DNA of 64,000 nt. It comes from Bryoerythrophyllum caledonicum (Eukaryota > Streptophyta > Bryopsida > Pottiales > Pottiaceae). The notes below the pieces were generated by a model, which made no database searches, was not told the DNA's origin, and saw only the letters and a list, made by a program, of their open reading frames with translations. Shown one piece after another: positions 37,875 to 59,322 of this stretch (positions are counted from its first letter, which is position 1; each line of letters starts with the position of its first letter). A program made the translations under genes and the position numbers. Location of the stretch: contig OZ020516.1 of assembly GCA_963971425.1 (NCBI GenBank), forward strand, positions 37,188,199 through 37,252,198. The letters run 5' to 3'.

Positions 37875-39464
37875 TCAGATGCATGCAGCGGAGATTGGCA
37901 CTTGCTCGGAGGAGTAGTGGATTTTCTCGACGTCTTTGAGGATGACGGGGTATGCGTCGATGCAGTGCGCCCACGGCGAGCGCGGCGAGGGCGAGACGGT
38001 GCGCAGCGCCTGCCACACCGCGCTGTTGCACTTGAAGCCGCTCCCGAACGCGATCTGCCACACGCGGTGGCCCTTGCGCATGCGCCCCTTGGCCTCCACG
38101 TACGCGAGCTCGTACCAGATCGACGAGGAGGACGTGTTGCCGAACCGGTGCAGCGTCATGCGCGACGGCTCGCAGTGCTCCACCGTGAGCTGCAGGTTCT
38201 TCTCCAGCTCGTCGATCACGCCGCGCCCGCCCGCGTGGATGCAGAAGTGGTGGAACGCCAGCTTGAAGTCCGGGATGTAGGGCTTCACCTTCCACCCGAG
38301 CACCTTGCGCGCCGCGAGGCGGGAGAAGAAGATGAGCTGCTCGGAGAGCGGGAGGACTAGCGGCCCGAGCGTGGTGATGTTTGTCTTCAGCGCGTCACCA
38401 GCGATCGCCATGAGGTCCTTCGAAAGCGCCACGCCTGTTTTGCCCATATCGTCCTCCTCTTGGTACACGCAGCGGAAGCACTTGTCGTCGGCGCCTTTGT
38501 GGGTGCGCACGACGTGGTTCAGTTTGTACTTGGAACGGGATCCGTCACTGCGCTTGTTGGATAAGAGGATCGCCGCGCCGCCGACGCGGAAAAGGCAGTT
38601 GGGGATGAGCATGGACTTGCGTTGGCCGAAGTACCAGTTCTGGGTGATGTTTTCGGTGCTGACGACGACCGCGTAGGAGCTGCGGTGGACTTGGAGCATG
38701 TCCTTCGCAAGGTCGATGGCGATTACGCTTGCGCTGCAGCCCATTCCGCCGAGGTTGTACGTGCAGGTGTTGCCGCGCATCTTGTACTTGTTGACAATTA
38801 TGGCGGCGAGGGAGGGGGTGGGGTTGAAGAGGGAGGAGTTCACGACGAGGATACCGACGTCCTTCGGGCTGATCTTAGTGGCGGCGAAGAGCTCATCGAG
38901 GCAAGAGAACACGACGGTTTCGGTTTCCGCGCGCGCCATCGCCATGTTAGGATTGGGCGGAATATTGAACATGGCGGGCGGGAAGTATGTCTCCTCGCCG
39001 AGCCCCGAGCGCTCCAGAATCTTTTCCTGGAACTCCAGCACCGGCTCCGAGAAGTACCCCGTCATACGCGTTCTCTTCATGAAGAGGCCCTTGGGGACCT
39101 TGAGGTGCGCGGCGGGGAGGTAGCACGCGAAGTCCACGAGGAAGACGGGACGCGGGCGCGACATCACGTATAAGGTCGCGCCGAAGACCAGAAGCGCGCT
39201 GCAGATGATCGCGCTCACCAGGTTAAACTGCAGATTCTTCCAGAGCTGGTGCAGATCCTCCGGCCCTATGCGCGTCACCTCCAGTAGCACGCCCACCAGC
39301 AACGGCGCCAGAAGCAGCGGCGCGAGGTAGGTCGTCAGGTAGTGGTACCCCAGCTTCACGTACTTGAGCTTCACCGATTGCAGCATGTCGGGCAGCCGCC
39401 GCGCCGGGGCAATGTGCACCGACATCCGCTGCGTCATCTTCTCCGCCGCCATGGCGAGCGACAC
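37875..39464 (-). CDS. KCS: 3-ketoacyl-CoA synthase (fatty acid elongase condensing enzyme)
   Basis: This intronless 529-residue frame is the condensing enzyme of the endoplasmic reticulum elongase. It joins malonyl-CoA to an acyl-CoA in making very-long-chain fatty acids for waxes, cutin-related lipids and sphingolipids. Two hydrophobic segments near residues 43-62 and 80-100 anchor it in the membrane. The FAE1/KCS domain follows. The catalytic triad is intact: Cys243 in GGMGCSAS, His410 in FCIHAGGRG and Asn443 in [10 protein letters not shown]. Length is typical for the family (about 500-530). The first ATG (39464) was chosen; the one at 39452 (MAAEKMTQ) is equally possible and changes only four residues. 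GC content is far above its surroundings, as for the other host genes. Substrate chain length cannot be read from the sequence. Confidence 0.97.
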
Positions 39465-39907
39465 GCAACTATCCTACAAACACGACTTCAAAACCTCAAC
39501 TCCCAAATAATCCCGAACAGTCCACTTTTAACCTCGAACACCACAGAAATGCTCCAACCAATTCATGACCTCACCGCTTGCAACATTATCAATCCCAAGC
39601 TCATCACTACACTCATCAGAAAACTCATCCTCACCCTGCAGGAGCCGATCGAGAATCTCAAAATGGAAATCGCAATCCACGAACTCAACAGAGACGTCAC
39701 ACACCAAGTCATACGCGAAAAGGAAAACCCGGATTCCCAAACTCGAAAAAGCAATCCATGTCGAATCGAATTGACATCACCAAACATCACAAGAACAGAC
39801 GTTGCACGCGGTGACTCACAGAGATAGCAGCTTCCAATGCACCCCCACAGTCCTCCCGCAATCACCCAGCCAGCTTCAGCAGTCCGAGGAAAGCACCTGG
39901 AGTGTGA

Positions 39908-39919: not shown

Positions 39920-40960
39920 ATCAGACGGTGGCAAGCAGTTTCACCAGCAACATGCAGCAGCGGAATTAACATCCATGACGTTGTTAACGTTGTGGCAACG
40001 GACCCACCCGTGAACAGGACGACGTCATGCGGTCGCAACATCATGGCGCTAGCTGGAGGCGGAATAATTCCATACGCTCTTGATGCGAGCTGCGAGAGGT
40101 CGCGACTCTCAGCTGCGTCGCAGCGCGCGGCACGCCACGCGACGAGACTAGTGTGCTTGCGATTATGCGCCATAGAATATGGGGAGGGTTGGAGCTGGTT
40201 CATGGGGGCATTAATTGGAGGCGGTACCTACTTTGGCAGAGGACACTGTTCTCCTTTGTCCAAGTTGTTGTTGGTAGCGTGCTACACTCCATTCTACAAG
40301 GATATACTTTTATGATGTTATGATTTTAATGGAGTACTTTGTCCTTTACACTCCATTCTACAAGGATTTACTTTCATGGTATTATTGTTGTGGAGTACTT
40401 TGTTCTTGGACTTATATAATTGAGTGAGGAAATTTTGACTCATCTTGGAGTGAAAGTTGCACGGTGCGGTAGTTTTTTTTTTCCCCCTAGAAATTTATTG
40501 CAATCTCAAATGATTTCATTTGATTTATTTGTATTAGAAATCTCATGTTTAATACAGGGTTGTAGCAAAACTTTTTGAAGGTGCTTGATGTGCTCGCCAA
40601 TTTTTTTTTTAAATAGCATATTTTTTTTCCTGTAGGTTCCATTGAAATAAAATTTATGTGAATCCCATGTAGCTTTTATCGTCTTGCATCTTCATACAAA
40701 ATATGAAGGTCTAGAAATACAAATTGTAATCATGGAAACATGCCGGAGATTTGCAAAAGCCCACCTTGGGACTTTTGATCTGTGGGGGTTAGGAGTGAAC
40801 AGATAGTAACATCAAAATAGTAAGAAAAGGGTGTTCTAGTAAAACTTTGGATGACTTGGCAAAGAACTTTAATACGGTTCTTGTTACAACACCATACGAA
40901 TGGAGGAGGTTTATCCATCTACAAAATGTAGATGAATAAATATGGAGAAGATTTGAGGAG
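39920..40960. other. Intergenic, upstream of KCS
   Basis: A GC-rich part (39980-40215) gives way to AT-rich sequence. Two 30-bp near repeats (ACACTCCATTCTACAAGGAT) lie at 40284 and 40348. No gene was recognised. Confidence 0.4.
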
Positions 40961-40968
40961 GTTAATGC

Positions 40969-41000
40969 AATTAACACCATATTCATTATATTGGGAGATT
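40969..41000. repeat. 32-bp sequence repeated inverted at 59291-59322
   Basis: This is a perfect 32-bp match in inverted orientation, 18.3 kb apart, enclosing the transposase block. The neighbouring bases also carry GAGGAGGTTTA-type words on both sides, so both may belong to an ordinary dispersed repeat and not be element ends. Confidence 0.8.
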
Positions 41001-41174
41001 AGGAGCCTCCCAAAATAATATGAAAAGCATGAGCAAACCTAAATATGCAAATGTTTAGTGATTTGCATAGTAACCTTTGAATACTATCTTTCGAGTTTGG
41101 TGTCCACTAAAATGGGAGGTGCGGAATTATTTTCAATGTAAAATTAGGCTTGAAAGAAATTAAAGTACATTTTT

Positions 41175-41553
41175 AGCTTCAGTCAAGCTGAAAGGAAGCA
41201 ACACTTACAACTCCAAATATCATTCAAAAACAAAAGATCAAATGTCAAGGTACGAAAATGCATTTCTCAAATCGAAACACACTATCAGCTCGAGTCGAGC
41301 TGAATGTGACCCAACAATTCCTATGCGATAAAACATTCAGAATAGTAAATATCGAAGGGCAAATCATCAAGCCCAGAATTCACTTCTCTCCAAGAAGAAA
41401 GCCATACACATTCAGCTCGACTCGAGCTGAATGTGCCCAAGCAATTCCTATGCGATAAACCATTCAGCATAGCAAATAATAAAATATCAAAACTCTGAAA
41501 TGTATTAATCTCCACAAGAAATGGGTGTACACTTTAGCTCGATTCGAGCTAAA
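41175..41553. repeat. Four dispersed palindromes of the TTCAGCTCGA family
   Basis: Hairpins occur at 41175-41194 (weak), 41285-41303, 41409-41433 and 41533-41553. The core is TCAGCTCGA facing TCGAGCTGA, the last one being TTTAGCTCGATTCGAGCTAAA-like over its stated positions. They lie 3' of the left transposase gene. Confidence 0.8.
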
Positions 41554-41596
41554 ATCACGCCAACAAATTTCGATCTTATGCACACATTCTTGGATA

Positions 41597-44493
41597 CTAG
41601 TATAAGAGTAACATCTTTGTACTAAAAAAACATTGCGAAGAAGACGGCTTGATATCCCTGATCAAACTATCTTGGATGATTTGAACTTGATTTCTAGGTA
41701 TCTTCACAACAGGAAATTCACTCCTACTTCTAGACTTCCATGCAGTCAACAGAGATCCCGTGTCCTCCCATTGCTGAAGTTGCTCATCATCAATTGTCCA
41801 TTGTAGACCGTTGGAAGAGGCCCATCCATTATAGCATCTTTGGACATTTGCATCGCGCGAAGTGGGCCGGAAGTACTGTATTTTGATAGAATTAGGCCTT
41901 TCCAGATCCGAATTAGGGCCCGAGAGAGCTTGTGCAATCCAAACAGGACGTTCATCTCCATCACACGGTCTTAATGCAACAAAATAGCCTCAGTAAACGT
42001 CTCCATTAATCCGAAAAGAAGGGGCTGGCCTATCTCGACTCTGCCCAACAAAGTGGTCATCTTCATCATGATCCTCACGAACAGCGCCCACACTAGTGAA
42101 TTGGTCCTCGATTGTCTGACCAATACGACTAGAAGGCCAAAAACCATCCTGTAGAGAGGTGGGCAAGTCCATTGGTTGACTAAGTGACTCTCTAACTGCC
42201 CGCCAATAGTAGCTCAAAGGCTCATATCGCCTTCGATATTCACCTGTACGATCCTCACGTGCTTGATGCTCCCAATATGAAATGAATCCAGAAAGACCTT
42301 TAATCACTTCAGAAAGATTGCGCATTGCCTGTGGCTGCAATGAAGGTGGTTCTCCACGTGGCCATAAAGACCTCCCATTTGAATCCTCCTTCCACAATTT
42401 GATCCCACCCCCTTCTCTTGGAAGCCAATCATCTTGATGACAAAGAATCTTGTATTTCATCATGGGACATCCGTTGGAATCAACAAAGAATTTGAATTGG
42501 TGAGCCTTTGCGTGGCCCTGTAATGCTTCGTCTCCACCTGCAATACCTTCACTAATAAAGGACTTGAAGTCCGGGACTTCTTCAATCAAGTGGGGGATTG
42601 TTGGCACACTTTCGTTCTCCATAAATGATCTCATGAGCAAAGGGATCGTGGGGAAACTCTCCTTCTTCAAAGCCATACTCCATCGACCGAATAATGCATC
42701 AATGTCATCATATGTGTGGCCAACAAGCATGAAATAAACATAAACCTCTCGGAAGATACCCTTTGCAACAAGAAGAGACCAAAAACAAAACACATATCTA
42801 TTTTTGTTGTCACTCACCACATTGTCCATTTGCACATGCAAAATAGGCGGCAAAGGTTTTGCAGTAGCTAGAGACTCAGGTGCGGCACGGAGGAATGGGA
42901 CACAAGTATCTGAAGCTCCTTACAAAACTGCTCGAAACAATGCAGTTCTCCCCGAACCCTGAAATAATTGTCGGGACGATGTCTTCAAAGGTTGTTCTAA
43001 ATCTCGCAACAATCTAGCAAAAGATCCCACTGTATAGTTGACATCATATGGGTAAATGTCCAAGCCATAATGAGCATATCGAACATCACCATGACCATGT
43101 GCAAGCATTCCAGTAACACTGTAACAGAGATGGGCAACTTCATCAGACCATCCAAATGTTTTGTCTTGTGAGAGAGGACAGGAGATGCAGTCTTTGAGTG
43201 ATCCATCTTGTCGTGCATAATCGTAACACATTCATCCGGCAACTCTTGAGAGCGGTAACGGTTGGAATAATACAACTCTCGATGAGCCCATGCTGAATCC
43301 AAACGGAGATTCAACCTCTGCTGCCACAATAGCCCAGCTTCTGTTCCAGGCTGCTGCAATCTCCGATGGGAATGGTACTTATCACACGTTGAACAACGAG
43401 CAAAGTTATCCCCAGGTCGTTTTGCATCGTAATCGGAAAAATTGACCCGCCTAATCTTACTCAGCCCTGAAGTGGAAATTTGGGAAAGCCCGCAATTAAC
43501 TAAGTGGACATCAATTGCAGGAATTTGATCTTTCCACTTGAAATTTGCGGGAAGAACTTTGGCCACAGATGTCTCACCCAAAGGCAAGATACGGGACTTG
43601 TGGGGCATGTGGTCAGCATTCCTATTAAGAATGACACGTAATGTTGCGGTAGCAACTACTATGTGATTTCTAGGTTTCCGTTTCCCTGAATTACCATGGG
43701 GTTGCGCGACTACACCAGCCGCTGCATCCTTGGCATATTCATAGAATGAGGTTTCACTGACGCCCATGATGTGCTGCCAGGCAGCTGCGCACACATCAAC
43801 GCCCTCAATGGTCACCACATTTCTACCGTTATTGTCCACATGAAACTGTCCGTCAACATCTAGCTTCATATGCCTTCTAAATTGAACGGAGGTTCCAAAA
43901 TACATCCTCATCCGCAATACCTTAATCTTCAATCGTGAGAAGCGTTGAACACAACTCCTAGAGCAACAGCGGTTTCCAGCAACAGAGTTGATAGATTCGT
44001 CAGAGAGGAGAATTGATGATTTTGTTGAAACCATGGTTGAAGGGATCCTAGATGAGCTTTCATAAGACCGAGTCCTCTCTCCAAGAGACCGGGTTCTCAT
44101 TGCCATTACAGAATTGTAAGTATCACGCTGCAGGTGATGCAAGAGACTGACACTATTATAGAAAACTTGACCAATGGGCCAAATCTTAACACAATAACGC
44201 CATTCGTCCGGTGCTTCATCTTCAACTAATGTCCTGGAGACCTGAATGGCAACGTGCGTATCACCTAATGGAGCATCAGTCCCAGAAATAGCCGTGGCGA
44301 GAAAGTTACGAAGTATTCCAGTGGCAATTGTAACACCGGACAGGTTTTTCATTTCGACTATCTTACCAACCCAAGAATGCCTTGGGAGAACTTCGAATTC
44401 CATCACATCAGCATCTACTGGATTGTGGAAAGACGAGTTGTCACTTGACAAATCAAAATCATCGTCGATTGAGGCACCGGTTGAAGTGTCCAT
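41597..44493 (-). pseudogene. DUF7869-type transposase-like gene, left copy, broken
   Basis: The reading starts at MDTSTGAS (44493; an AG acceptor lies eight bases upstream) and can be followed to a TAG at 41597-41599. In order there is a Cys cluster NRCCSRSC (residues ~175), an internal VCAAAWQHIMGVSETSFYEY, CSTCDKYHSHR (~367), MHDKMDHSK (~426), GMLAHGHGD, LHVQMDNVVSDNKNRY, MLVGHTYDDIDALFGRWS and a C-terminal GYFVALRP...PVWIAQAL part. This series is typical of the plant and protist DUF7869 proteins linked to transposons. Asp in DKMD, QMDN and DDID could form an RNase H-like DDE/D site (inference). Lesions: an 8-bp insertion near 43113-43120 shifts frame; in-frame TAA at 42920 and TGA at 41990. 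Other than these it is open, so decay is recent. Bases up to 43121 lie in the palindrome arm; the rest is outside. Confidence 0.75.
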
Positions 44494-44630
44494 CTCGGCA
44501 CTGCAAAGTTAAGGCGAAAGTGTAAATAATTGTCGTAGTATGATAGAACTCCAAGGTTCATCCCACATCAATCAAAGTAAACAAAAAAAAAACATAATTG
44601 TTCATCTCCACGATTAGGTGAAGACAAAGC

Positions 44631-44800
44631 ACATTCAGCTGAAGTCCAACTGAATATGCAGTGCACATTCAGCTCGACTCCAGCTGAATATGCACTACAC
44701 ATTTAGCTCGGGTCGAGCTGAATCTGCACTACACATTCAGCTCGGGTCGAGCTGAATATGCACTGCACATTCAGCTCGGGTCGAGCTGAATGTGCACTGC
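44631..44800. repeat. Array of five TTCAGCTCGA palindromes (left arm)
   Basis: Five units of about 34 bp, each made of GTGCACATTCAGCTCG with the inverse half GAGCTGAATATGCAC, lie in tandem just upstream of the transposase first coding exon. The spacer base between half-sites varies (GGG, ACT, AAGT). The mirror copy is at 54648-54817. Confidence 0.9.
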
Positions 44801-44805
44801 TTCAA

Positions 44806-45639
44806 GCTAGAGTACTGAATCAAAACCTGAAGCACTCATACGAAGAAAAACTACGCCTTTTGATAGTTGCATGAACATATATGTCATACTGACGTACAAA
44901 TAATAAAATGAATCCCTAAATCAGTACTAAGAAGGCGATTATGTTGACGCCGAAGTATCACCTCCTTCCTACAACTTTTTCATTACATTGAAAATGATAG
45001 TATCAAATGTGCAAATCAAATGCCAAGTAAATCACCATAAAGTTTAGACAGAAGTCACTTACAAATGGTCCGATTGCGTGCACCAAAACGTCTTGAATGA
45101 GGAAGGAAGAGAAAACCCTACTCTTTGTCATGGCCGCAGCAACCATTCACGACCACACACCTCCGCATCTCTAGAAATTCCAAACACAACTAAGTTGACC
45201 TAGAATAATGTATCCACTTCTTGCTAGAGTACTGAATCAAAACCTGAAGCACTCATACCAACAAAAACTACGCATTTTGACAGTTGCAAGAACATATATG
45301 TCATACTGACGTACAAATAATAAAATGAATCCCTAAACCAGTACTAAGGAGGCGATTGTGTTGACACCAAAGTATCACCTCCTTCCTACAACTATTTCAT
45401 TATATTGAAAATGATAGTATCAAATGTGCAAATCAAATGCCAAGTAAATCACCATAAAGTTTAGACAGAAGTCACTTACAAATGGTCCGATTGCGTGCAC
45501 CAAAACGTCTTGAATGAAGAAGGAAGAGAAAACCCTACTCTTTGTCACGGCCGCAGCAACCATTCACGACCACACACCTCCGCATCTCTAGAAATTCCAA
45601 ACACAACTAAGTTGACCTAGAATAATGTATCCACTTCTT
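44806..45639. repeat. 417-bp tandem duplication in the transposase leader (left arm)
   Basis: Units 44806-45222 and 45223-45639 are nearly identical. On the coding (minus) strand each ends with CCATTTGTAAGTGAC, a good splice donor, so the duplication may create two alternative leader exons. The mirror copies are 53809-54225 and 54226-54642. Confidence 0.9.
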
Positions 45640-45740
45640 GCACAGAAATTTGACTTCGAATGCAATAGGTCTTTCAAATGTCAAGGCATAGTTCGAGACA
45701 GTATAGATTCACGAAGGCTTACCATATTAGAAAGGTGCAA

Positions 45741-45742
<2 letters not shown>

Positions 45743-45772
<30 letters not shown>
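45743..45772. repeat. (GA)n microsatellite (left arm)
   Basis: About 15 GA units; the mirror tract is at 53676-53705. On the transposase coding strand this is a CT tract upstream of the leader, where plant core promoters often carry such tracts. Confidence 0.9.
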
Positions 45773-45777
<5 letters not shown>

Positions 45778-46136
45778 AGGTTGGGGTGTATTGACCACGT
45801 CGAACAAGTTGCCGTTAAGAAAAGAGCGGGAATGACATCACGTTTAGTGGGGAGGAGCTGTTCTAAATAAAGCATCTTTCAAACTTGACCAAAAAATTAA
45901 CAAGCACATAAGTTTTCCTCATATCTCGATGTATTGGAAGTTTCTATTTACATGATCAATTTAAGGTTATCGATTGGGGTTATGGGTATCAATTTAAATT
46001 TGCAAGAATCAATTTAAATTTAAGGTATAGAATTATGTATCAATTTAAGGTTATCAATTTGGGTTATGGGTAATTGATTACGGTCATTTATTTCCATATT
46101 AAGGATATTGATTATGACTAGATTATAAAAGTAAAG

Positions 46137-46400
46137 ATTTAGGTTTAGGGTTCAAATTACATTTTGACATTTAGGGTTTAGGGTTTAAGGTTTAGGATTG
46201 CAAGTCCATGGTATGAAGTGTAAATTATAGGGTTTAGGGTTTAAGGTTTAGGATTGCAAGTCCATGGAATGAAGTATAAGTTATAGGGTTTAGGGTTTTG
46301 GACTAGACAATTCTAGAATTAGATTTATGGATTTGGATTTAGGGTTTAGGATTTTAGAATTTAGTGTTTGGGGTTTAGGATTAGGGTTTAGATTAGCATT
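46137..46400. repeat. Interstitial telomere-like TTTAGGG repeats (left arm)
   Basis: Degenerate TTTAGGG units are mixed with TTTAAGG and TTTAGGA. They include two copies of a ~60-bp unit containing GGATTGCAAGTCCATGG. Mirror copy at 53048-53311. The array is too degenerate to be a functional telomere. Confidence 0.75.
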
Positions 46401-46515
46401 GAGATTACCACTGAATCAAAATGTCCTTTCTATAAGACTGTTTATCGTATCAAAATTGAATTGTGCCTTGGTATTGATTTAAGAAAATTCATTACATATC
46501 ACCTAAAGATAAGAT

Positions 46516-46545
46516 TTAACCCCTAAACGTCCCTGATGTTGAAAA
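46516..46545. repeat. TTAA-CCCCTAAACG element tip (left arm)
   Basis: TTAACCCCTAAACGTCC resembles the tips of the TTAA-flanked elements at 28780 and 50700. The mirrored tip ends at 52932. No partner tip was found inside the same arm. Confidence 0.5.
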
Positions 46546-47344
46546 ACGACATTCCGGATGAGCTCGGGGAAGTTCAAATGGCTGCCATTTTTTCATCTGA
46601 AGTCCGTTTCATTCCTTTGTTTTTGGAAGTTATTGTAGACCGGGTGTAGTTTACTATGGAGTTATTTCCTTTACCCCAAGCAATACTGTGATTTTTGTAG
46701 GGAGGTTTTAGATGGAGGAGGTGTTTGTTTTGAAGCAAGTTTTGCAATTTTTGGTGAAAATTTTGGCTGCCATTTTGAGTTGGGGCAGTAGGGATTAGTG
46801 CAAAGATGAAGAAAGAAATTATGCTGCCCTTGGTGGTTCACTTCAAGAAAAGTATGTTTTTAGAAAGATAAGTAATTAGAGCTACTAATTACTATTACAG
46901 GGTGGTTGGACAACCTCCAAAACGGGCTCCCTCATCAAATAGGGCAGATCTCAAGACAAGGAGGGGGAAGGACAAAGTGGCATTAAAAATTCAAATGTGC
47001 ACACAAACTTAGACCTTCTTGTGCATTCAAAAAACCAAGTCATACAATACATTTCAACATTATTGAGCCACCATTTCAACATCTCAGCAATCAAATTGCA
47101 AGATTCAAATCACAACCAACACCATCCCACCACCATCACATAATAAATGCACATGGATTTCAAAATTCAAAATTCAAAATTCATGTACATGCTACATCAA
47201 ATTCTAGAGGATTCCATTTACAACTTGGACTCAAATCAATTTGCCTACCAACATTTTACAAATGAAAAACATCCAACAATTGAAATTTGAATCAGTTCTT
47301 CTAAACCGGGTTGCATATTGAATTCCATACTATGCCCCATCCGC

Positions 47345-47562
47345 ACTAATTGGGACCCCAACAACAATAATTAGGGTCCCCAACAACAGCTAAAGGGGCT
47401 CCAACAACAGTGGTTGGGGCCCCTAGCAATAGCTCCTAGGGCCCCCAGCAACAGTCGTTGGGGTCCCCAGCAATAGCTACTGGGGTCCCAACAACAGTCG
47501 TTGGGGCCCCCAGCAATAGCTGCTGGGGTCTCAACAACAGCTGCTAGGGCTCCTACAACAAT
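47345..47562. repeat. Array of ~21-bp self-complementary units (left arm)
   Basis: About ten units alternate CAACAACAGTCGTTGGGG and CAGCAATAGCTGCTGGGG, each able to form a small hairpin. The array sits at the inner edge of the arm, and the mirror array is at 51886-52103. Homology between the arms stops within about 15 bp of the array. Confidence 0.85.
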
Positions 47563-49264
47563 GTCGTCGTCTTTTTGTCTTTGTCTTTTTGTCTTTGAGT
47601 TTTTGTCTTTTACTTTCAACTCAAAATTGAACATACTTTTATATTTTAATACTTTTAGAAAATAAAGTATATTTTTATAAATTCAAACTGATACTTACAT
47701 TGTAAATTTATTTTTACAGCAGAAATAAGTGAAAGCTTGTAGAAGTTAGCTATAAATACTATTTACAATAGAAAATATTATTATTGTATAGAGTAAACAC
47801 ATATGATTATCAAAATATATCGAGATATTTATTGCCTTATATTCTGAAGATGGCTGAGCTTGTACAACCGAGTGCAAAAAAACCTAGAGTAGGACAAGTT
47901 ATTGCCCTAAATTTTATAGAAGATCAGCAAATCCTGGAGTTGGTATACGATTCAAAGAGTAGAGGTTGTAAAACCGTTGGGCACACCAACAAAGCATTTG
48001 ACCGGTTACATGCCATACCTTGTTGAAAAACCCTAACGTGGCTGTATTTCAAAAATATATTTACCAATCCTTCATCTAGGGTAGACATGACCATAACAAA
48101 ACAATAGGTTTACGTCCATTATTGCCACAAACTATGCCATGATTGTGCGCAAAAATCTTTACGTTGCTCTATATGTGAACCGACACTAGATCCTGATTCC
48201 TGATTTTGCAATGCATACAAGATTTATTTTTTATTCTTCAATAATTATCGACATGTTCTTTGTATCAATATTGTTCTCCATTGTAATATCTTGTCTTAGC
48301 AAGGGACCCTATGTGGGTATCATTTAGGTTTTGGCTTCATTAAGTATATAGTGAAAATTGTTATATATAGAGATAAATTATGATATGATATAAATTTATA
48401 AATATTGGTAGAGTCAATTGATAGAAATTAAATACTTGGAGGTCTATCAGGCTAATATCATTCATTCAAAGATATTCAGTGTTAAGTTTATTTTCAAAAT
48501 CTTAAGCGAATAACTATCAATTCTATGTGTAACATTTAATCCATAGAATTCATACTTAATGATCAAGCTTCTATTATATTTTTGAAATATTTTAATGTAT
48601 TTTCAAATTTATATTTTAAGATATTCAATGATTAATCTTTTAAAAATATTCAACTAACAAAATGGTAATTATTAATGACTCTTTGGATTTAAAAGATGAC
48701 CTTTAAAAAGAAGTGTACAACAAGTTTAATTTTATTTATATTTTCATTTATCAATACTACAATCAAATGTGTTGAAATAAAATAAAAATCATGATATAGA
48801 TTATTCAAATAATGGAAATGATTTGTTGAATTTGACCAAAACAATGTAATGTGGTTGCTTTTGTACATAATTCATATAAAATGGATGAAAGTATAAACTT
48901 TTTGTCCAGGTGATTATCCATGTAATGTTAAGGTGCTACCCCTATAATGCATAGGTGATACCCATGTAATACTTAGGTGAAATCCACTATGTCCAAATCA
49001 TTGGGACAAAGGAAAATAATTCTTTTGACTTAGAGGTGTTGAAGCGACCACTAGGTACGGTAATGATAAATTTCAATGATTATAAATTCTTGATCAATTG
49101 CACATTTTTTCCTTTTAGAAATCTATAGTTAAATTTCAAAGAAATTTGGAGTCCTATTGTCCAACCGTAGGAATTTGATATATCCTAGGAATAAACAATG
49201 ATCATTTGAGGTAGCTTTGATATGATTGAAGAACCTTCAATTTCAAAATCAATGACTTATTGCA

Positions 49265-50068
49265 TCATACTACTAAAATCATAATCCTCGCAGTGAACCA
49301 CGCAGCGATCAATCGCGCAGTCAGCCGTGCAGTGAACTATAGGAGCGATATAGTCAACCGCGCAATTAATTGCGCAACCAACCGCGTAGTGAATCATGTT
49401 ACTTTTTTAAAAATATAGTTTGTAATATATAAAAATACATTAAAATAATTGGACTCATGCGTTGCAAAGCATTAGCTTGAGATTTTGGGTGTGACGAATT
49501 TGCATTTGTGTGTTGCAATTTGTGCTCTTGATTACAAATTTGACGTTCAAAATATTTTTTTAGTTAAGCACTAAAAGATTGAATTGTAAATGATGAGTTG
49601 TAAAGTCGGAGTAAAAAAGTTGTGAAGTTGGAGTTGTGATCTTGGAGGTTGGCATACAAAGTTGGAGTTCCAAAATTGCATATTCAAGTTGTGGACATTG
49701 AAATTACAAATTGAGTTTGTGGATGTGTGAATTTGAGATTGTAATTAAAAGTTGAGTTTGTGGGTGTGTGAAATTTGCATTTGTGTGTTGCAATTTGTGC
49801 TTATCCAAAATAAATTTGAAACTCTTGATTACAAATTTGACGTTCATAACATTTTTGAAATTCCATGTTAAAATGCAAAAAATCTAAAACCTAATTTATT
49901 TTTTTCTATTCTATTCTATTACATTATTAAAATTCATGCATAGGTTTCAAAGACATATTTATATTTTATGTAGATTGTTGTTACCTTTTTTTTTAATATA
50001 TTTTGTGATATAAAAACTACATTAAAATGGTTGAACTAATGCGTTGCAAAGCAAGCGCCAACTGCTAG
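49265..50068. mobile_element. Helitron-like non-autonomous element
   Basis: The start is A|TCATACTACTAAAATC. The end has a GC-rich hairpin (GCGTTGC-AAA-GCAAGCGC), then CAACTGCTAG followed by T. A TC start, a hairpin 10-12 bp before a CTAG end and insertion between A and T are Helitron hallmarks. No Rep/helicase is encoded. The internal GCGTTGCAAAGC at 49459 may be an older end. Confidence 0.5.
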
Positions 50069-50699
50069 TATGTATTTAAAAATACAATCTCATTATTGAA
50101 GTTTCGTTTCACAATAGATTAGGATTCTCAATCCATGAAAGATATTTGATACTTTTCAAAATTAGATTTTTAATTTGAAGCCCCCTCATCCATTCACTTG
50201 ATTCCAATCTACTTAGATATTTATTTAAACTCAATATTTTATCCATGATATTGCTATTAGGCCAAAATCTATGCATGTCTTTTAAATAATATTAATTGTT
50301 TTGAACATATAAAAACTTTGAAATTATATTTTTGGTTTTTATATATGTGCTATCACAAAAAGAAGAAGATTAAATATTGTAACTCAATTGTTTAATCATA
50401 AATCTTCCAAAAACAATAAATTAAAAAATATATATTGTATAATCCCAGTGTCTTTGATTTGCGTTCACTACAGGAAGTTTTTGAGTATGATATTTACAAG
50501 CCTATAGAGTAGGTGCAAAATGTATATAACACAAATTGTATATAATAATGGCAATTTCTTTTCATATTGTAAGATTGTCATTCATCATGTAAAGTTGCAA
50601 TGGGCCCATTCAATAACAACATGTCCAAAATAGTCTTCACCATCACTTCAAAGCCATAATCTTCCAAATTCTACTATGAAGGAATTAATAACATTTGTA

Positions 50700-51560
50700 T
50701 TAACCCCTAAAGGACGAGAGTCTCCTTCGGGGGATTTCTGATTTTGGGCAGGTTCCTAAAATTCGAAAAAAAAAAAATTTCTCTAATTTTTTTATTCTAG
50801 ATTGCCTCTGATAAGAGCTTCGTAGACATATTTTTATTTTATTTTTTGGATTTGTGGTTTGAAAGTTAGTATCAGTTAAAGCCAAAAGTAGAGACACCGG
50901 GCACCTCAAAGTTTTTTGACAAAAGTTTCTATTGACATTGAGATTTTTCACACATATAAAGAATATTTCCTTTTTGGAAATTTTCAATAAAAAATCTTGT
51001 CTTTAATGTAAAGAGGCATTTTATTCTAAGTCAAACATTTTCACACATTGTCGGGCAACGGGGGAAAAATTCTTCATCTTTTCTACATAAGACCTAGAGA
51101 TCTTCAAATTTTTCACTTTTTATTTTTTCAACAACAATATGTGGTGAAAACCTTCTTATTGACCGTTTGGATTATCATTTGAATACATACGTAGTACACA
51201 AAATAAAACGTGAAATGGCAATCATTGAACCTCCACTCCTTGCACACTTGTTTTGAATATGCTACACCCCTTTTCTACCTCTAAAAATTGGTGGGTTGGG
51301 AAATAACATCATGCTTAAGACAATGGTAAAAGATTTAGACCTTGTAAAATGCAAAAATTTGATACAAAGTGAAGTCAAAGTCTGCTGATGTACTCAACGC
51401 AGGGAAGAAAATCAACCATTGTTTTGACTTTAAACACTAAAATCTATCAATCTGTACGGTGAATTGCAACCAAAAGTTTAAGGCATGTTTATATGGAAGT
51501 CTATTTTAAGATCTTACGGTTGAAAATCCAAAATTCACTTTAAAGAACCAAATCAAATGG
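50700..51560. repeat. Copy of the dispersed repeat with a TTAACCCCTAAAGGAC tip
   Basis: This is the best-preserved left end of the repeat family seen at 5250-6150. Shared words include GGGCAGGTTCCTAAAATTCG, TATTGACATTGAGATTTTTCAC and ATTGTCGGGCAA. The right end is not clear. Confidence 0.55.
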
Positions 51561-51872
51561 ACAAATTATGAATTGAAATGAGAAATTTTAGGCTGATATC
51601 CAAATTTTAGCTGCTTTGGTCTTCCTAAGATGAGATTTGTGTAAAACCCATATATTACAGTTTTAACTCAGTTGCATTTTGGAAGCTAATGGATAAGGTA
51701 ACCCCTTGTATCCAATGAGAACTCATAATCAACACCAATAAAATTAGGGTATATCCAACTGACTTCCATCCCATTACCACCTATTTAGCTCCAAGTGAAG
51801 GTTAGCGATTCAAAAGAATCCCATACATTTCGCCGCCACTGTTGGGGGTACCAATTAGCAGTCGCCGACTAA

Positions 51873-53670
51873 AAAAGACGAAGACATTGTTGTAGGAGCC
51901 CTAGCAGCTGTTGTTGAGACCCCAGCAGCTATTGCTGAGGTCCCAAACGACTGTTGTTGGGACCCCAGTAGCTATTGCTGGGGACCCCAACGACTGTTGC
52001 TGGGGGCCCTAGGAGCTATTGCTAGGGGCCCCAACCACTGTTGTTGGAGCCCCTTTAGCTGTTGTTGGGGACCCTAATTATTGTTGTTGGGGTCCCAATT
52101 AGTGCGGATGGGGCATAGTATGGAATTCAATATGCAACCCGGTTTAGAAGAACTGATTCAAATTTCAATTGTTGGATGTTTTTCATTTGTAAAATGTTGG
52201 TAGGCAAATTGATTTGAGTCCAAGTTGTAAATGGAATCCTCTAGAATTTGATGTAGCATGTACATGAATTTTGAATTTTGAATTTTGAAATCCATGTGCA
52301 TTTATTATGTGATGGTGGTGGGATGGTGTTGGTTGTGATTTGAATCTTGCAATTTGATTGCTGAGATGTTGAAATGGTGGCTCAATAATGTTGAAATGTA
52401 TTGTATGACTTGGTTTTTTGAATGCACAAGAAGGTCTAAGTTTGTGTGCACATTTGAATTTTTAATGCCACTTTGTCCTTCCCCCTCCTTGTCTTGAGAT
52501 CTGCCCTATTTGATGAGGGAGCCCGTTTTGGAGGTTGTCCAACCACCCTGTAATAGTAATTAGTAGCTCTAATTACTTATCTTTCTAAAAACATACTTTT
52601 CTTGAAGTGAACCACCAAGGGCAGCATAATTTCTTTCTTCATCTTTGCACTAATCCCTACTGCCCCAACTCAAAATGGCAGCCAAAATTTTCACCAAAAA
52701 TTGCAAAACTTGCTTCAAAACAAACACCTCCTCCATCTAAAACCTCCCTACAAAAATCACAGTATTGCTTGGGGTAAAGGAAATAACTCCATAGTAAACT
52801 ACACCCGGTCTACAATAACTTCCAAAAACAAAGGAATGAAACGGACTTCAGATGAAAAAATGGCAGCCATTTGAACTTCCCCGAGCTCATCCGGAATGTC
52901 GTTTTTCAACATCAGGGACGTTTAGGGGTTAAATCTTATCTTTAGGTGATATGTAATGAATTTTCTTAAATCAATACCAAGGCACAATTCAATTTTGATA
53001 CGATAAACAGTCTTATAGAAAGGACATTTTGATTCAGTGGTAATCTCAATGCTAATCTAAACCCTAATCCTAAACCCCAAACACTAAATTCTAAAATCCT
53101 AAACCCTAAATCCAAATCCATAAATCTAATTCTAGAATTGTCTAGTCCAAAACCCTAAACCCTATAACTTATACTTCATTCCATGGACTTGCAATCCTAA
53201 ACCTTAAACCCTAAACCCTATAATTTACACTTCATACCATGGACTTGCAATCCTAAACCTTAAACCCTAAACCCTAAATGTCAAAATGTAATTTGAACCC
53301 TAAACCTAAATCTTTACTTTTATAATCTAGTCATAATCAATATCCTTAATATGGAAATAAATGACCGTAATCAATTACCCATAACCCAAATTGATAACCT
53401 TAAATTGATACATAATTCTATACCTTAAATTTAAATTGATTCTTGCAAATTTAAATTGATACCCATAACCCCAATCGATAACCTTAAATTGATCATGTAA
53501 ATAGAAACTTCCAATACATCGAGATATGAGGAAAACTTATGTGCTTGTTAATTTTTTGGTCAAGTTTGAAAGATGCTTTATTTAGAACAGCTCCTCCCCA
53601 CTAAACGTGATGTCATTCCCGCTCTTTTCTTAACGGCAACTTGTTCGACGTGGTCAATACACCCCAACCT

Positions 53671-53707
<37 letters not shown>

Positions 53708-56327
53708 TTGCACCTTTCTAATATGGTAAGCCTTCGTGAATCTATACTGTCTCGAACTATGCCTTGACATTTGAAAGACCTATTGCATTCGAAGTCAAAT
53801 TTCTGTGCAAGAAGTGGATACATTATTCTAGGTCAACTTAGTTGTGTTTGGAATTTCTAGAGATGCGGAGGTGTGTGGTCGTGAATGGTTGCTGCGGCCG
53901 TGACAAAGAGTAGGGTTTTCTCTTCCTTCTTCATTCAAGACGTTTTGGTGCACGCAATCGGACCATTTGTAAGTGACTTCTGTCTAAACTTTATGGTGAT
54001 TTACTTGGCATTTGATTTGCACATTTGATACTATCATTTTCAATATAATGAAATAGTTGTAGGAAGGAGGTGATACTTTGGTGTCAACACAATCGCCTCC
54101 TTAGTACTGGTTTAGGGATTCATTTTATTATTTGTACGTCAGTATGACATATATGTTCTTGCAACTGTCAAAATGCGTAGTTTTTGTTGGTATGAGTGCT
54201 TCAGGTTTTGATTCAGTACTCTAGCAAGAAGTGGATACATTATTCTAGGTCAACTTAGTTGTGTTTGGAATTTCTAGAGATGCGGAGGTGTGTGGTCGTG
54301 AATGGTTGCTGCGGCCATGACAAAGAGTAGGGTTTTCTCTTCCTTCCTCATTCAAGACGTTTTGGTGCACGCAATCGGACCATTTGTAAGTGACTTCTGT
54401 CTAAACTTTATGGTGATTTACTTGGCATTTGATTTGCACATTTGATACTATCATTTTCAATGTAATGAAAAAGTTGTAGGAAGGAGGTGATACTTCGGCG
54501 TCAACATAATCGCCTTCTTAGTACTGATTTAGGGATTCATTTTATTATTTGTACGTCAGTATGACATATATGTTCATGCAACTATCAAAAGGCGTAGTTT
54601 TTCTTCGTATGAGTGCTTCAGGTTTTGATTCAGTACTCTAGCTTGAAGCAGTGCACATTCAGCTCGACCCGAGCTGAATGTGCAGTGCATATTCAGCTCG
54701 ACCCGAGCTGAATGTGTAGTGCAGATTCAGCTCGACCCGAGCTAAATGTGTAGTGCATATTCAGCTGGAGTCGAGCTGAATGTGCACTGCATATTCAGTT
54801 GGACTCCAGCTGAATGTGCTTTGTCTTCACCTAATCGTGGAGATGAACAATTATGTTTTTTTTTTGTTTACTTTGATTGATGTGGGATGAACCTTGGAGT
54901 TCTATCATACTACGACAATTATTTACACTTTCGCCTTAACTTTGCAGTGCCGAGATGGACACTTCAACCGGTGCCTCAATCGACGATGATTTTGATTTGT
55001 CAAGTGACAACTCGTCTTTCCACAATCCAGTAGATGCTGATGTGATGGAATTCGAAGTTCTCCCAAGGCATTCTTGGGTTGGTAAGATAGTCGAAATGAA
55101 AAACCTGTCCGGTGTTACAATTGCCACTGGAATACTTCGTAACTTTCTCGCCACGGCTATTTCTGGGACTGATGCTCCATTAGGTGATACGCACGTTGCC
55201 ATTCAGGTCTCCAGGACATTAGTTGAAGATGAAGCACCGGACGAATGGCGTTATTGTGTTAAGATTTGGCCCATTGGTCAAGTTTTCTATAATAGTGTCA
55301 GTCTCTTGCATCACCTGCAGCGTGATACTTACAATTCTGTAATGGCAATGAGAACCCGGTCTCTTGGAGAGAGGACTCGGTCTTATGAAAGCTCATCTAG
55401 GATCCCTTCAACCATGGTTTCAACAAAATCATCAATTCTCCTCTCTGACGAATCTATCAACTCTGTTGCTGGAAACCGCTGTTGCTCTAGGAGTTGTGTT
55501 CAACGCTTCTCACGATTGAAGATTAAGGTATTGCGGATGAGGATGTATTTTGGAACCTCCGTTCAATTTAGAAGGCATATGAAGCTAGATGTTGACGGAC
55601 AGTTTCATGTGGACAATAACGGTAGAAATGTGGTGACCATTGAGGGCGTTGATGTGTGCGCAGCTGCCTGGCAGCACATCATGGGCGTTAGTGAAACCTC
55701 ATTCTATGAATATGCCAAGGATGCAGCGGCTGGTGTAGTCGCGCAACCCCATGGTAATTCAGGGAAACGGAAACCTAGAAATCACATAGTAGTTGCTACC
55801 GCAACATTACGTGTCATTCTTAATAGGAATGCTGACCACATGCCCCACAAGTCCCGCATCTTGCCTTCGGGTGAGACATCTGTGGCCAAAGTTCTTCCCG
55901 CAAATTTCAAGTGGAAAGATCAAATTCCTGCAATTGATGTCCATTTAGTTAATTGCGGGCTTTCCCAAATTTCCACTTCAGGGCTGAGTAAGATTAGGCG
56001 GGTCAATTTTTCCGATTACGATGCAAAACGACCTGGGGATAACTTTGCTCGTTGTTCAACGTGTGATAAGTACCATTCCCATCGGAGATTGCAGCAGCCT
56101 GGAACAGAAGCTGGGCTATTGTGGCAGCAGAGGTTGAATCTCCGTTTGGATTCAGCATGGGCTCATCGAGAGTTGTATTATTCCAACCGTTACCGCTCTC
56201 AAGAGTTGCCGGATGAATGTGTTACGATTATGCACGACAAGATGGATCACTCAAAGACTGCATCTCCTGTCCTCTCTCACAAGACAAAACATTTGGATGG
56301 TCTGATGAAGTTGCCCATCTCTGTTAC
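51873..56327. repeat. Right arm of the 4.45-kb inverted repeat
   Basis: This is the inverted partner of 43121-47575. It contains, in mirror order, the 21-bp array (51886-52103), the TTAA tip (52932), telomere-like repeats (53048-53311), the CT tract (53676-53705), the 417-bp duplication (53809-54642), the palindrome array (54648-54817) and the 5' part of the transposase gene. The near-absence of differences points to a recent duplication or ongoing gene conversion. Confidence 0.95.
54648..54817. repeat. Array of five TTCAGCTCGA palindromes (right arm)
   Basis: Mirror image of 44631-44800, upstream of the right transposase start. Each unit is two half-sites of TTCAGCTCG type about a central two or three bases. 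Confidence 0.9.
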
Positions 56328-56334
56328 TGGATAG
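54955..56334 (+). pseudogene. DUF7869-type transposase-like gene, right copy, truncated
   Basis: A 459-residue open frame, identical to the left copy except for isolated changes such as Ser for Leu in the RILP.GE motif. A splice acceptor (TTTGCAG, ending 54947) precedes the ATG. It keeps the Cys cluster (~175), CSTCDKYHSHR (~367) and DKMD (~428-431) but ends at SVTG followed by a TAG, where the arm homology stops. The DN and DDID parts of the presumed catalytic core are missing, so it cannot be a full transposase. It also lacks the 8-bp insertion seen in the left copy, so it keeps the ancestral sequence at that spot. If translated it could act only as a truncated DNA-binding-type product (inference). 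Confidence 0.75.
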
Positions 56335-56397
56335 ATTGTACAATCTATCTTTCTCAAGATTTACAATCTATCTCCTAAAGTCATTGTTACTTCTATT

Positions 56398-56428
56398 GCA
56401 TATTCAGCTCGACTCGAGCTGAATATGC
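56398..56428. repeat. Perfect 31-bp palindrome of the TTCAGCTCGA family
   Basis: Two 15-bp half-sites (GCATATTCAGCTCGA and its inverse) around one central C. This is the most perfect member of the family and lies just outside the right arm. Confidence 0.95.
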
Positions 56429-56641
56429 ATTACTTTCTGTATATATTGTTGTTCACCCTCTGTGTGGATCATGTTAAAATTCAAGTAGTCCTCTCCCTTG
56501 TGTGCATCCAATTGTTGAGTACTCATAAACTTGCACAATCAGTTTGAGTCGAGGTGTATGTTGATCTTGTTTAGTATCAACTGTCGTTGCATTTTTTGGG
56601 CATGCTTGTTCATAACCTTTAATCAAATTTGCTGAATTTCA

Positions 56642-57702
56642 GATGCCCTAAGCCTTGAAGTCGATTTCATAAAAGATGATGCTGCCTCTTCTGAGCATCC
56701 TTCTATGGTTGGTGCAAAGCCCATTGATGCTACTTTGGCCATCAACTCACAAGTATAACTTTAATCTCACCAGTTCATGGCCAAAATGATTGTGCTGTCT
56801 TTTGTAGTGCTTCCTTCTTCGTAAAATATTTTGTGCTCTATTGGTATATATTGTTTAATGTTTAGTAACATGTACCTCCACTCTTTCCCATTTGAATTCC
56901 AAGTGGTCGAGCCACTAGAGAGCGTTCATAGCGCCGTAGTCCGTGTTTCTCGTTCAACCCCTAGAGTGGTCAAACCGTGGTTAAACATTGTGTTTGACTT
57001 GAACGGTATACTGTGTGTGTGCGAGGAATTCCGCTTGAGGTCTGCTACGCAAGCCTTCAATGCTTGTTCTCTGCCACACTCAGTAAAGGTTCCAGCCAAG
57101 GTCGGCCCAAGGCTAGTGTATGTTCGTCCTGGCTGCAAGGCATTTTGGACGTTGTTTCCAAGTTTGCATCGATATCGGTCTGGAGTTCGATGAAATTGAA
57201 CACCACTAGTAGCATCATCAATTACCTCTTCCCGAAAGCAGTCTCACCAAAAGTTATATTTGGACAAGAGCATTGTAGGAGAGTCGTAACTGCTGTGATA
57301 CATAATGTACCTCAATATCTGAAGGTTAAGAACTCGGATAAGGAGGTATTTCTGAAGACGTTGTCGAAAGACCTTTTTACAAAAAAGGGTGGATACTTTA
57401 CGAAGGAGAATACCATCATCATAGATGACAGCCCGTACAAGCACGTCCTGAATAATCCGGAGAATGTGCTTCTTGCGGAGACTTGGTCCTACAAAGGGGA
57501 TGGATGGAACGATAAGTTCCTTCTCAATGTCTTGCTTCCGTGGCTCCAAAAGCTCCATAGTATTATAGAGTTAGGGCTGCAATCTTTTCGGCAAGAGAAT
57601 CCCTTTGGTCGTCCGACAGTTTGCTCGGATCCATATAGCTTAGAATACATAGAATTAACGCACGCGATTATGATATCTGTTGGGCTCGCAAATTCAAAGT
57701 AG
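56642..57702 (+). pseudogene. FCP1/NIF-type HAD phosphatase-like gene, frameshifted
   Basis: The core reads WLNIVFDLNGILCVCEEF, YVRPGCKAF, then in the next frame LDVVSKFASISVWSSMK, FGQEHC, then KDLFTKKGG, NTIIIDDSPYKHVLNNPEN and WNDKFLLNVLLPWLQKLH. This is the FCP1-like (HAD) fold: motif I, the VRPG and WSS segments, and the IDDSP motif. Motif I has Asn in place of the second Asp (DLNG), as in a plant subgroup of FCP1-like proteins, so phosphatase activity is doubtful. A one-base loss near 57145 breaks the frame between the two halves. A likely upstream exon (56642-56752) reads LSLEVDFIKDDAASSEHPSM; the junction to the next exon is uncertain. It lies right behind the truncated transposase, inside the palindrome-marked block, so it may be transposon cargo. 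Confidence 0.65.
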
Positions 57703-57899
57703 TTCACTGGTATCAAACATAATTGTCGTGATGTGTTATACTATACATATTCTGTAATTCAAGTGGCAGTTGCCAGTTCTTTGATATTTGATTGTAATTG
57801 TTTGTTTGTTATTGTTGAGTTTGTAAGTTTTTGTTCTCTCATTGCTTACATGTTTGAAAAAGAGCCGTTCACCATTTTCTCAAGTAAACTATTGTATTG

Positions 57900-58948
57900 C
57901 CACCATGGATTCATGTTTTGAAGTCTGAAGATTGTGGATATCGAATTCCAAGAAATCAAAATGATTTGTACTCCCACGGAGCAGCTGATTATTTGATGGA
58001 CTCTTCGATGGCTCTAATTGAAGAAGATGAAGTAAACAGCCCCCCACCAAAATTTTGCATTCGAAAGGTTGCCTCCCGTTCTATTCTTCAACCTCGTCAA
58101 ATTCTGGGGTCCCCCAGTATTGATAGGATTTGTGGGAAAGGTGACCAAGTGCTTGTTCGCGAACGTGAGGAATCATTGTCTCTTCCCCCGAGAAGCATGG
58201 TATTCCCCCCTCCCCTTCTCTGTATTTGTCGTAGGTCTTTTTTTGGCAATGTGCACATTCAGCTTGAATAGAGCTAAATATGCACAAGTTGCATTTTAAC
58301 TCCCTTTGACCCTACGTCATAGGATCACGCGCTTCAAACACTTGCTGGTGTAATTCAACCACCTACGACGGTGCCATCAGAGAAAATGCCCACAATTCCT
58401 ACTACGTGTCGGCGTGTTGCAACGGTCGGAAATGATGAGAACAAGCTTCAATCTCTAAGTGGGAAAACGCATTCTACTATTGAGGTTGGTCATATTTTTT
58501 GTTATTGTTTAATGTGTTGTATCTTCTCCTCTTAATCAACATTGTTTTGATTTTGCATGTTTCACGAACACCTAAATTGGACATAATTATTTGAATGGAT
58601 TCCACGTCATGGTGTTTGTATTTTTTTGACATGTGTGGCTACATATTCAGCTTGGTTTTAGCTGATTTTTGTGGTCTCTTTTGCTAGGTGCTTCGACCGA
58701 CTATGCAGCGTCAAAGTGCTTCCCCAAAGCATGGTTTAAACCAAAACTCGAAGCGTCACTCTCGCCGTTGCCACTCGCTTCCTGTGCCTGTTGTTACTTG
58801 GAATCAACGAATGCAACGCCAACGACTGCAAGAACATATACGTGCTGGTCAAATGCCATATATCGGTTACAGCCGCAAAGATGAACTTCAGAGGGGTAGG
58901 GATGAGCTGAGTAAATCTAATTCTAGTGACGTGGAGAAGATCAAGTAG
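57900..58948 (+). CDS. Unrecognised multi-exon gene within the transposon block (partial)
   Basis: Three exons fit together in phase 0: about 57910-58199 (CGYRIPRNQNDLYSHGAADY ... LVREREESLSLPPRSM), 58325-58484 (DHALQTLAGVIQPPTTVPSE ... SGKTHSTIE) and 58688-58948 (VLRPTMQRQSASPKHG ... SNSSDVEKIK, stop TAG). Introns have GT-AG ends (ATG|gtattc, catag|GAT, GAG|gttggt, gctag|GTG). The product is basic, Ser/Gln-rich and without a recognised domain; the GQMPYIGYSRKDELQRGRDE stretch near the end is the most structured. The first exon may continue from the FCP1-like gene upstream, since 57702 to 57900 is short. Members of the TTCAGCT palindrome family sit in both introns and in the 3' flank. Function unknown. 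Confidence 0.5.
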
Positions 58949-59007
58949 ATTTATGATCTCAGTGGTACAAGTGCACATTCAGCTTGGCTATACCTGAATG
59001 TGCATTG
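58250..59007. repeat. Three palindromes of the TTCAGCT family in introns and 3' flank
   Basis: Degenerate members occur at 58250-58285 (GTGCACATTCAGCTTG with GAGCTAAATATGCAC), 58642-58666 (TATTCAGCTTGG, AGCTGA) and 58970-59007 (GTGCACATTCAGCTTGG with CTGAATGTGCAT). A weaker trace is at 56536-56560. Confidence 0.75.
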
Positions 59008-59290: not shown

Positions 59291-59322
59291 AATCTCCCAA
59301 TATAATGAATATGGTGTTAATT
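59291..59322. repeat. 32-bp inverted partner of 40969-41000
   Basis: This is a perfect inverted match. The sequence beyond (59345-59400, ATGAATAAATAGGGG and GGAGGAGGTTTTT) resembles words outside the left copy as well. Confidence 0.8.

Follow-up and report, generated by a model that had tools for sequence, protein, structure and literature searches.

Within a 64,000-nucleotide stretch of contig OZ020516.1 from the moss Bryoerythrophyllum caledonicum (the window), two long inverted arms, the spacer between them and the sequences flanking them are all parts of a single 18.35-kb DNA transposon with terminal inverted repeats (TIRs) and a DUF7869 transposase gene. The initial annotation recognized the palindrome, which stands, and overlooked the surrounding TIR element with its broken transposase. 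Because one TIR element frames the whole structure and a relative (L001) carries the same motif core, the palindrome is read here as an inverted duplication internal to a single copy of the element. We consider it only slightly more likely than not (roughly 0.55) that this duplication arose from aberrant repair of a break left by transposon excision. Coordinates are collected in Table 1.

Table 1. Features of the 18.35-kb element, in window coordinates
Feature	Position	Strand	Remarks
Left terminal inverted repeat	40969..41000	+	32 bp, perfect inverted match to 59291-59322
Left subterminal motif cluster	41171..41554		4 copies in loose scan
Transposase gene (DUF7869), broken	41597..44508	-	PF25273 2.5e-35; ORF list; tblastn of intact relative P0001
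16-bp scar, left-arm outer edge	43112..43127		two 8-mers, both central bases complemented
Left arm	43121..47576	-	x / 99448-x pairing
34-bp palindromic motif array, left arm	44628..44800		5 copies
417-bp tandem duplication, left arm	44806..45641		upstream of transposase; 14/417 differences
Telomere-like TTTAGGG tracts with 56-bp repeat, left arm	46172..46391
22/43-bp GGGGCCCCAACAACAGTCGTT-like array	47350..47540		by left-arm inner edge
Spacer	47577..51871		4295 bp
Dispersed repeat in spacer	50699..51544	+	~77% like 5245-6078 of window
Right arm	51872..56327	+	x / 99448-x pairing
417-bp tandem duplication, right arm	53807..54642
34-bp palindromic motif array, right arm	54648..54819		5 copies
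Transposase 5' half, right arm	54940..56334	+	open frame, 464 codons
20-bp perfect palindrome, right-arm outer edge	56330..56349		one base from scar-site 8-mer
Right subterminal motif copies	56402..58999		5 in loose scan, 2 within 3 mismatches
Second gene, NLI/CTD-phosphatase-like (PF03031)	56825..57702	+	Pfam 6e-10 for 56998-57702
Right terminal inverted repeat	59291..59322	-	32 bp, perfect

When each position x is paired base by base with 99448-x, the arms correspond over 4456 bp with 0 gaps and 9 mismatches (99.8% identity), and the flanking 100-base blocks outside them pair at only 20-33%. An inverted duplication from 43121 to 47575, with no length change and few differences, had been described from the sequence at the outset; it is borne out, with the left arm ending one base further, at 47576. 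At the left outer edge there are 8 extra bases, and the match extends about 4 bases more once these are allowed for. The recorded contents of the arms also hold, each arm containing a transposase 5' half, the 34-bp motif array, the 417-bp tandem duplication, telomere-like repeats and the 22/43-bp array, as does the observation that the rest of the transposase gene is continuous with the left copy only (ORF list; tblastn with P0001). The 417-bp tandem duplication predates the inverted duplication. The left inner edge (47576) adjoins a small GTCTTTTT array. At an E cut-off of 0.01 nothing in the spacer resembles the arm, the motif scans place no copies of the palindromic motif there, and Rfam gives 0 matches at gathering score across 40000-60000. 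A KCS gene and the TTTAGGG-like repeats point to a plant host. The duplication had also been called recent, which is secure only in part: the nine differences lie towards the arm ends (three of them within the 22/43-bp array) and leave a gap of 2861 bp (P between 0.0009 and 0.0145, according to the way clustered differences are counted), a pattern equally in keeping with gene conversion between the arms or with assembly polishing.

The perfect TIR match of 32 bp compares with a maximum of 14 in 100 mononucleotide shuffles of two 3.5-kb stretches, and the TIRs enclose a transposase gene recognized through PF25273, as expected of a TIR DNA transposon. Foldback (FB) elements have long inverted repeats that form the element ends. 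The present structure is likewise a large fold-back, but its arms are internal, starting 2.1 kb and 3.0 kb inward of the TIRs, and it is not an FB element. Nor is the palindrome itself an inserted element, since its outer edges lack an in-register target site duplication: the roughly 300 bp compared to either side share no word of 9 bases or more, and the 8-mers present are out of register. No clean target site duplication was found at the element flanks beyond the TIRs, whose outermost bases (AATTAA...TTAATT) leave room for a palindromic 4-bp AATT or TTAA duplication indistinguishable from the TIR itself. In the Kolobok superfamily a TTAA duplication is described as followed by 5'-RR termini (PMC9587614); with TTAA as the duplication the element would begin with CA, so that on a comparison of termini it does not belong there. 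In profile searches of the transposase pieces and of the L001 relative, DUF7869 was the only Pfam domain above cut-off, and no piggyBac profile reached it.

The palindromic motif is largely confined to the element. At up to 3 mismatches to a 23-mer, all 13 window matches fall within it, against 0 in 100 shuffles, and a looser scan places 19 of 21 there (left end 4, left arm 5, right arm 5, right end 5, spacer 0). Of the copies in the left subterminal cluster, two match the 23-mer with no more than 3 mismatches, another has a perfect core, and the one at 41171 is weak. Judging by titles, the papers found on subterminal palindromes in bryophytes include no plant case. In the L001 relative (CADCWO010000071.1, filed as a cyanobacterial MAG) the transposase gene is flanked on both sides by a palindromic motif that shares this core: 9 core matches at up to 3 mismatches were counted where 0.17 would be expected, 4 of them ahead of the gene and 5 behind it. 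It differs in the outer bases of the motif, in the absence of any inverted duplication from its 4.3 kb (12-mer inverted repeat scan) and in the second gene, which finds no tblastx match among the 40 best rows.

L001 encodes an intact, related transposase of 947 aa, 56-65% identical to that of the element, with a PF25273 match of 1.6e-42; codon position 3 is the most divergent between the two. DUF7869 is presumably a DDE catalytic domain. No papers on DUF7869 were found. Searches of PDB by sequence gave 3 matches for one transposase piece, the best at E 0.38, and none for the L001 relative (E 1) or for a piece of the second gene (0.01). Among viral contigs, 6 pattern matches to a transposase-piece query and 65 to an alignment query included 0 relatives, and a structure model of the L001 relative was useless (mean pLDDT 29.5). 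In the moss element, the 8 extra bases disrupt the transposase gene where the arm ends, and in-frame stops interrupt it at 41990-41992 and 42920-42922. This copy, on its sequence, is dead; it would be non-autonomous and mobile only if helped in trans. Both transposase halves have their 5' ends towards the spacer and read outwards. The right-arm frame meets a stop just beyond the junction, ahead of the DUF7869 domain, and at that point the 8 bp also put the left copy out of frame. The second gene appears to be broken near 57.13-57.19 kb, though it may instead have an intron there: its 56825-57193 part matches PF03031 at 0.084, below cut-off, and in a different frame from the rest.

How the duplication formed is suggested by its outer edges. 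The left scar is an 8-bp duplication with complemented central bases, in the form of a hAT excision footprint, and its 8 extra bp are missing both from the right arm and from L001, the unduplicated state; the change was therefore an insertion on the left. Ac/Ds footprints are described as centered on complements of the element-adjacent bases, with palindromic insertions (PMC5873905), and here a palindrome lies at the right junction, one of only 3 loci in the 64 kb with perfect palindromes of at least 20 bp outside AT runs. Ac sister chromatid transposition is likewise described as able to yield flanking inverted duplications (PMC3744419). In the preferred reading, a hAT-type element would once have occupied the edge site in the transposase gene, and its excision would have left a break that was sealed with a footprint. 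The arm side of this break would have been copied, and the copy attached to the element's right part via a hairpin-processed end. As a result, a 4.46-kb segment comprising the upstream region and the N-terminal transposase half would have been placed in reverse between the spacer and the element's right end, an original order of spacer and right end being assumed for this single copy. The structure does not look like a product of hAT alternative transposition of the kind reported for Ac, which retains Ac ends and 8-bp duplications at its endpoints (PMC9910405, PMC4270019). Unlike those products, the junctions here have neither Ac-like ends, which were sought by eye, nor flanking 8-bp duplications; arm and flank abut at the outer edges with no hAT remains, and no hAT element was seen. 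Footprint-type scars are absent from the inner edges (47576, 51872), and the spacer end and the right part have no common 8-mer.

The same internal duplication could possibly have arisen with no hAT element, through replication template switching or ordinary end joining, leaving the 8 bp and the 20-bp palindrome as by-products of repair. The left scar can also be read, as GTAACA-CT-GTAACA, as a 6-bp slip with 2 filler bases, and a small tandem array lies at the left inner edge. Sixteen-mers of footprint form are moreover expected about once per window by chance (mean 1.3 in 20 shuffles), and the pattern was tested only after it had been noticed at the arm edge; only its position at the edge therefore speaks for a footprint. 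Against this alternative, the window's sole such 16-mer coincides with the arm edge, and a rare palindrome marks the opposite outer edge.

Two separate, opposite insertions of the same element, one of them truncated, would resemble a double-Ds structure in having arms of opposite orientation with a spacer between. This is very unlikely: what the left end (40969-43112) has in common with the right end (56329-59322) is limited to the 32-bp TIR and to stretches of 24-41 bp on motif copies, and the window holds no other TIR copy at fewer than 10 ungapped mismatches. An assembly artefact is equally hard to credit, error-prone as long near-identical inverted copies are, since a 4.3-kb non-palindromic spacer does not match a simple missed-adapter fold-back, the arms are distinguished by 9 base differences and an 8-bp difference, and the right flank is part of the same element, with the matching TIR at its end.

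The initial annotation compared the palindrome to Mu killer of maize as a possible source of silencing RNA. As a structure the comparison is apt in kind: Mu killer, a derivative of MuDR, is described as a partial inverted duplication of a transposase gene in a rearranged DNA transposon (PMC3440606), and the transposase 5' region is duplicated in inverted orientation here as well. The silencing part of the claim is opposed by gene orientation, and also by the position of the structure inside one TIR element with a broken transposase. In the published account, about 1.3 kb of mudrA is duplicated, both TIRs derive from one end, and TIRA ends lie outside with mudrA running inwards to the inversion point (PMC3440606). 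In the moss element, by contrast, the genes diverge, the arms are 4.46 kb long around a 4.3-kb spacer, the two ends diverge past the first 32 bp, and the element has a DUF7869 transposase. Since both halves read outwards, both would give sense RNA and no hairpin; a hairpin would need read-through across both arms, and the palindrome is not obviously a gene-silencing hairpin. A locus at which such read-through yields long hairpin RNA and siRNAs that silence live copies is thus unlikely, despite the inverted transposase 5' half and the 99.8% arm identity. Even for Mu killer itself, the 2012 report puts forward a new model based on short antisense transcripts, to which the hairpin may contribute (PMC3440606).

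The element's own transcripts, running outwards, would yield at most two N-terminal half proteins. Truncated P-element repressors such as KP are N-terminal transposase fragments remaining after rearrangement, and a truncated P-element protein is described as binding P DNA and repressing (PMC7776569). By analogy, both arms could express a putative motif-binding N-terminal half that blocks live transposase, and the open right-arm frame and the frame loss of the left copy, both ahead of DUF7869, are in keeping with this. The transposases are nevertheless unrelated, and a putative repressor role is here read from the open frame. The 3.1 kb upstream within the arm has no TATAWA box, so that the arm may be without a promoter, and the structure model gives no help on putative DNA binding by the N-terminal half. 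Such a repressor, too, is improbable. Slightly more doubtful still is the combined scenario, in which a member of a DUF7869 family with conserved palindromic sites became a divergent fold-back through the excision of another transposon. It would now repress its own family through the two N-terminal half transposases that its arms express, and hairpin RNA from read-through would act as a second brake.

One route by which a plant may come to silence a transposon is duplication of its transposase gene in inverted orientation, with Mu killer the published case found in a literature judged from titles and the starts of abstracts. The present locus is legible base by base, and the scars at both of its outer edges bear on how it formed. 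Through it, DUF7869 is connected with a TIR element whose palindromic motif is conserved. The outward orientation of its genes would allow simple experiments to tell apart hairpin silencing, a repressor protein and an inert scar.

The palindrome is best read as an internal duplication within a larger DNA transposon (probability about 0.9). We take the entire 18.35 kb enclosing arms and spacer to be one element, bounded by a perfect 32-bp terminal inverted repeat (TIR) recovered by sensitive self-comparison. The longest inverted match in 100 shuffles of the two surrounding 3.5-kb stretches was 14 bp, and no other ungapped match within the window comes closer to the TIR than 10 mismatches. Beyond the TIR, the two element ends have in common only stretches of 24-41 bp, all on copies of a palindromic motif of 23 bp, ATTCAGCTCGANTCGAGCTGAAT. 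When up to 3 mismatches are allowed, this motif has 13 matches, 13/13 within the element, and none in 100 shuffles; a looser scan of the window gave 21, two outside the element and 19 inside (left end 4, left arm 5, right arm 5, right end 5). The spacer holds no motif copy in the looser scan and has no similarity to the arms at E 0.01, and it carries a dispersed repeat.

Features of the element and its surroundings in the window
Feature	Position	Strand	Remarks
TCT/GAA array	3058-4769		1.7 kb, ~571 units
Dispersed repeat, ~0.8 kb	50699-51544		in spacer
Dispersed repeat, second copy	5245-6078		~77% identity to spacer copy
Dispersed repeat, third copy	26326-26840		68% identity in comparison with this copy
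Two adjacent satellite arrays	35516-36856		179-bp and 174-bp units
3-ketoacyl-CoA synthase-like open frame	37875-39473	-	532 codons; FAE1_CUT1_RppA 1.9e-134
Element	40969-59322
TIR, left	40969-41000
TIR, right	59291-59322
DUF7869 transposase frames	44508 -> 41597	-	2.5e-35
Left arm	43121-47576
Spacer	47577-51871
Right arm	51872-56327
Second gene, phosphatase-like (NLI/CTD)	56825-57702	+	inside element

The inverted duplication proposed in the initial annotation was confirmed: the arms pair ungapped over 4456 bp (x with 99448-x) with 9 mismatches, and pairing stops abruptly at all four edges. The differences fall at 43504, 43580, 43591, 43759, and 44642, all five of them transitions, and at 47503, 47507, 47510, and 47566, leaving a difference-free stretch of 2861 bp. 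In 20,000 random placements a gap of this length arose in 0.09% when all nine were counted separately, in 0.6% when three clustered differences were treated as one event, and in 1.45% when the inner four were. Given this uneven spacing, the arms may be young, with differences that happened to fall unevenly, or their central part may have been homogenized, through gene conversion or assembly polishing; the description of the duplication as recent is secure only in part. Each arm contains a 417-bp tandem duplication whose units differ at 14/417 sites and which shows no differences between arms, so that, by sequence divergence, it is older than the inverted duplication.

A single scan of genome contigs gave 10 pattern matches and one relative, CADCWO010000071.1 (L001, 1-4327), a 4.3-kb contig filed under a cyanobacterial (Synechococcales) MAG and probably a eukaryotic contaminant of it. 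Its transposase is intact (947 aa) and shares 56-57% identity with the window protein in the first half and 65% in the second. Divergence at codon position 3 is 0.64 and 0.59, versus 0.20-0.36 at positions 1 and 2, an excess as would be expected for genes formerly under selection. The L001 version of the motif has an identical core and flanks the gene on both sides (9 matches, 0.17 expected); conservation of the core despite the distance between the proteins suggests a putative transposase binding site.

The outer edges of the arms carry features that may bear on origin. The left edge reads CC AGTAACAC TGTAACAG AGATGG, the matching site in the right arm reads CC AGTAACAG AGATGG, and L001 is in frame there without extra bases. 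Because both comparators lack them, the 8 extra bp are an insertion on the left. The scar consists of two copies of the 8-mer in which the bases meeting at the junction, the first copy's last and the second copy's first, are complemented. In published descriptions, Ac/Ds footprints have at their centre the complement of the base adjoining the transposon ends, and include palindromic insertions (PMC5873905). Of all possible 16-mers of this form the 64 kb contains one, the left-edge scar. Since 20 window shuffles yielded 0-3 (mean 1.3), the form by itself is not rare, and its weight lies in the sole example falling exactly at an arm edge. The right edge carries GATAGATTGTACAATCTATC, a perfect 20-bp palindrome one base from the same 8-mer; in the window only two further loci have palindromes reaching 20 bp outside AT runs. 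With these two features, both outer edges look like processed excision breaks.

A hAT-type element may formerly have been inserted in the transposase gene. Its excision would have left one break sealed with a footprint, while the arm side of the break would have been copied, with the sister chromatid as source or through repair synthesis running off the broken end, and joined inverted between the spacer and the right part. Flanking inverted duplications are given as a possible outcome of Ac sister chromatid transposition (PMC3744419), and composite insertions as arising from re-replication and end joining (PMC4270019). However, the endpoints of the Ac alternative-transposition and re-replication products described still bear transposon ends or 8-bp duplications (PMC4270019, PMC9910405), and neither was seen at the endpoints of the palindrome, where hAT ends were looked for by eye. 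A hAT origin is put slightly short of an even chance, because the footprint pattern was picked post hoc, after the scar had been seen, and because nothing at the inner edges resembles the outer scars.

As regards transposase, this copy is predicted to be dead on its own, since the left gene is disrupted by the 8 extra bases and the right half (464 open codons) stops shortly beyond the junction. The left gene also has in-frame stops at 42920-42922 and 41990-41992. It lies on the same strand as the 3-ketoacyl-CoA synthase-like frame and is directed toward it; the 5' end of that frame and the left TIR are 1.5 kb apart. The second gene, either a captured host gene or a native partner, shows an apparent frame change, for which an intron is also possible, and its first part matches the profile weakly (0.084).

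The initial annotation likened the palindrome to Mu killer, the rearranged maize MuDR derivative. The parallel holds for inverted partial transposase copies and fails for orientation: Mu killer is described with TIRA ends outermost and two partial mudrA copies terminating in the inversion (PMC3440606), whereas the window halves have their 5' ends toward the spacer and both read outward. By eye, an intron-like acceptor directly precedes the start codon in the window element and in L001, and would shift the transcription start further upstream. L001 has TATAAA at 517. In the window element, the 3.1 kb of arm lying upstream of the gene yielded no TATAWA, so the promoter may be TATA-less within the arm or may lie in the spacer. 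Wherever it sits, the coding direction is outward, and hairpin RNA would form only if transcription read through 13 kb. Repression by the N-terminal transposase half, for which truncated P-element proteins are a precedent (PMC7776569), would fit the anatomy about as well as hairpin silencing, both being candidate roles for the palindrome.
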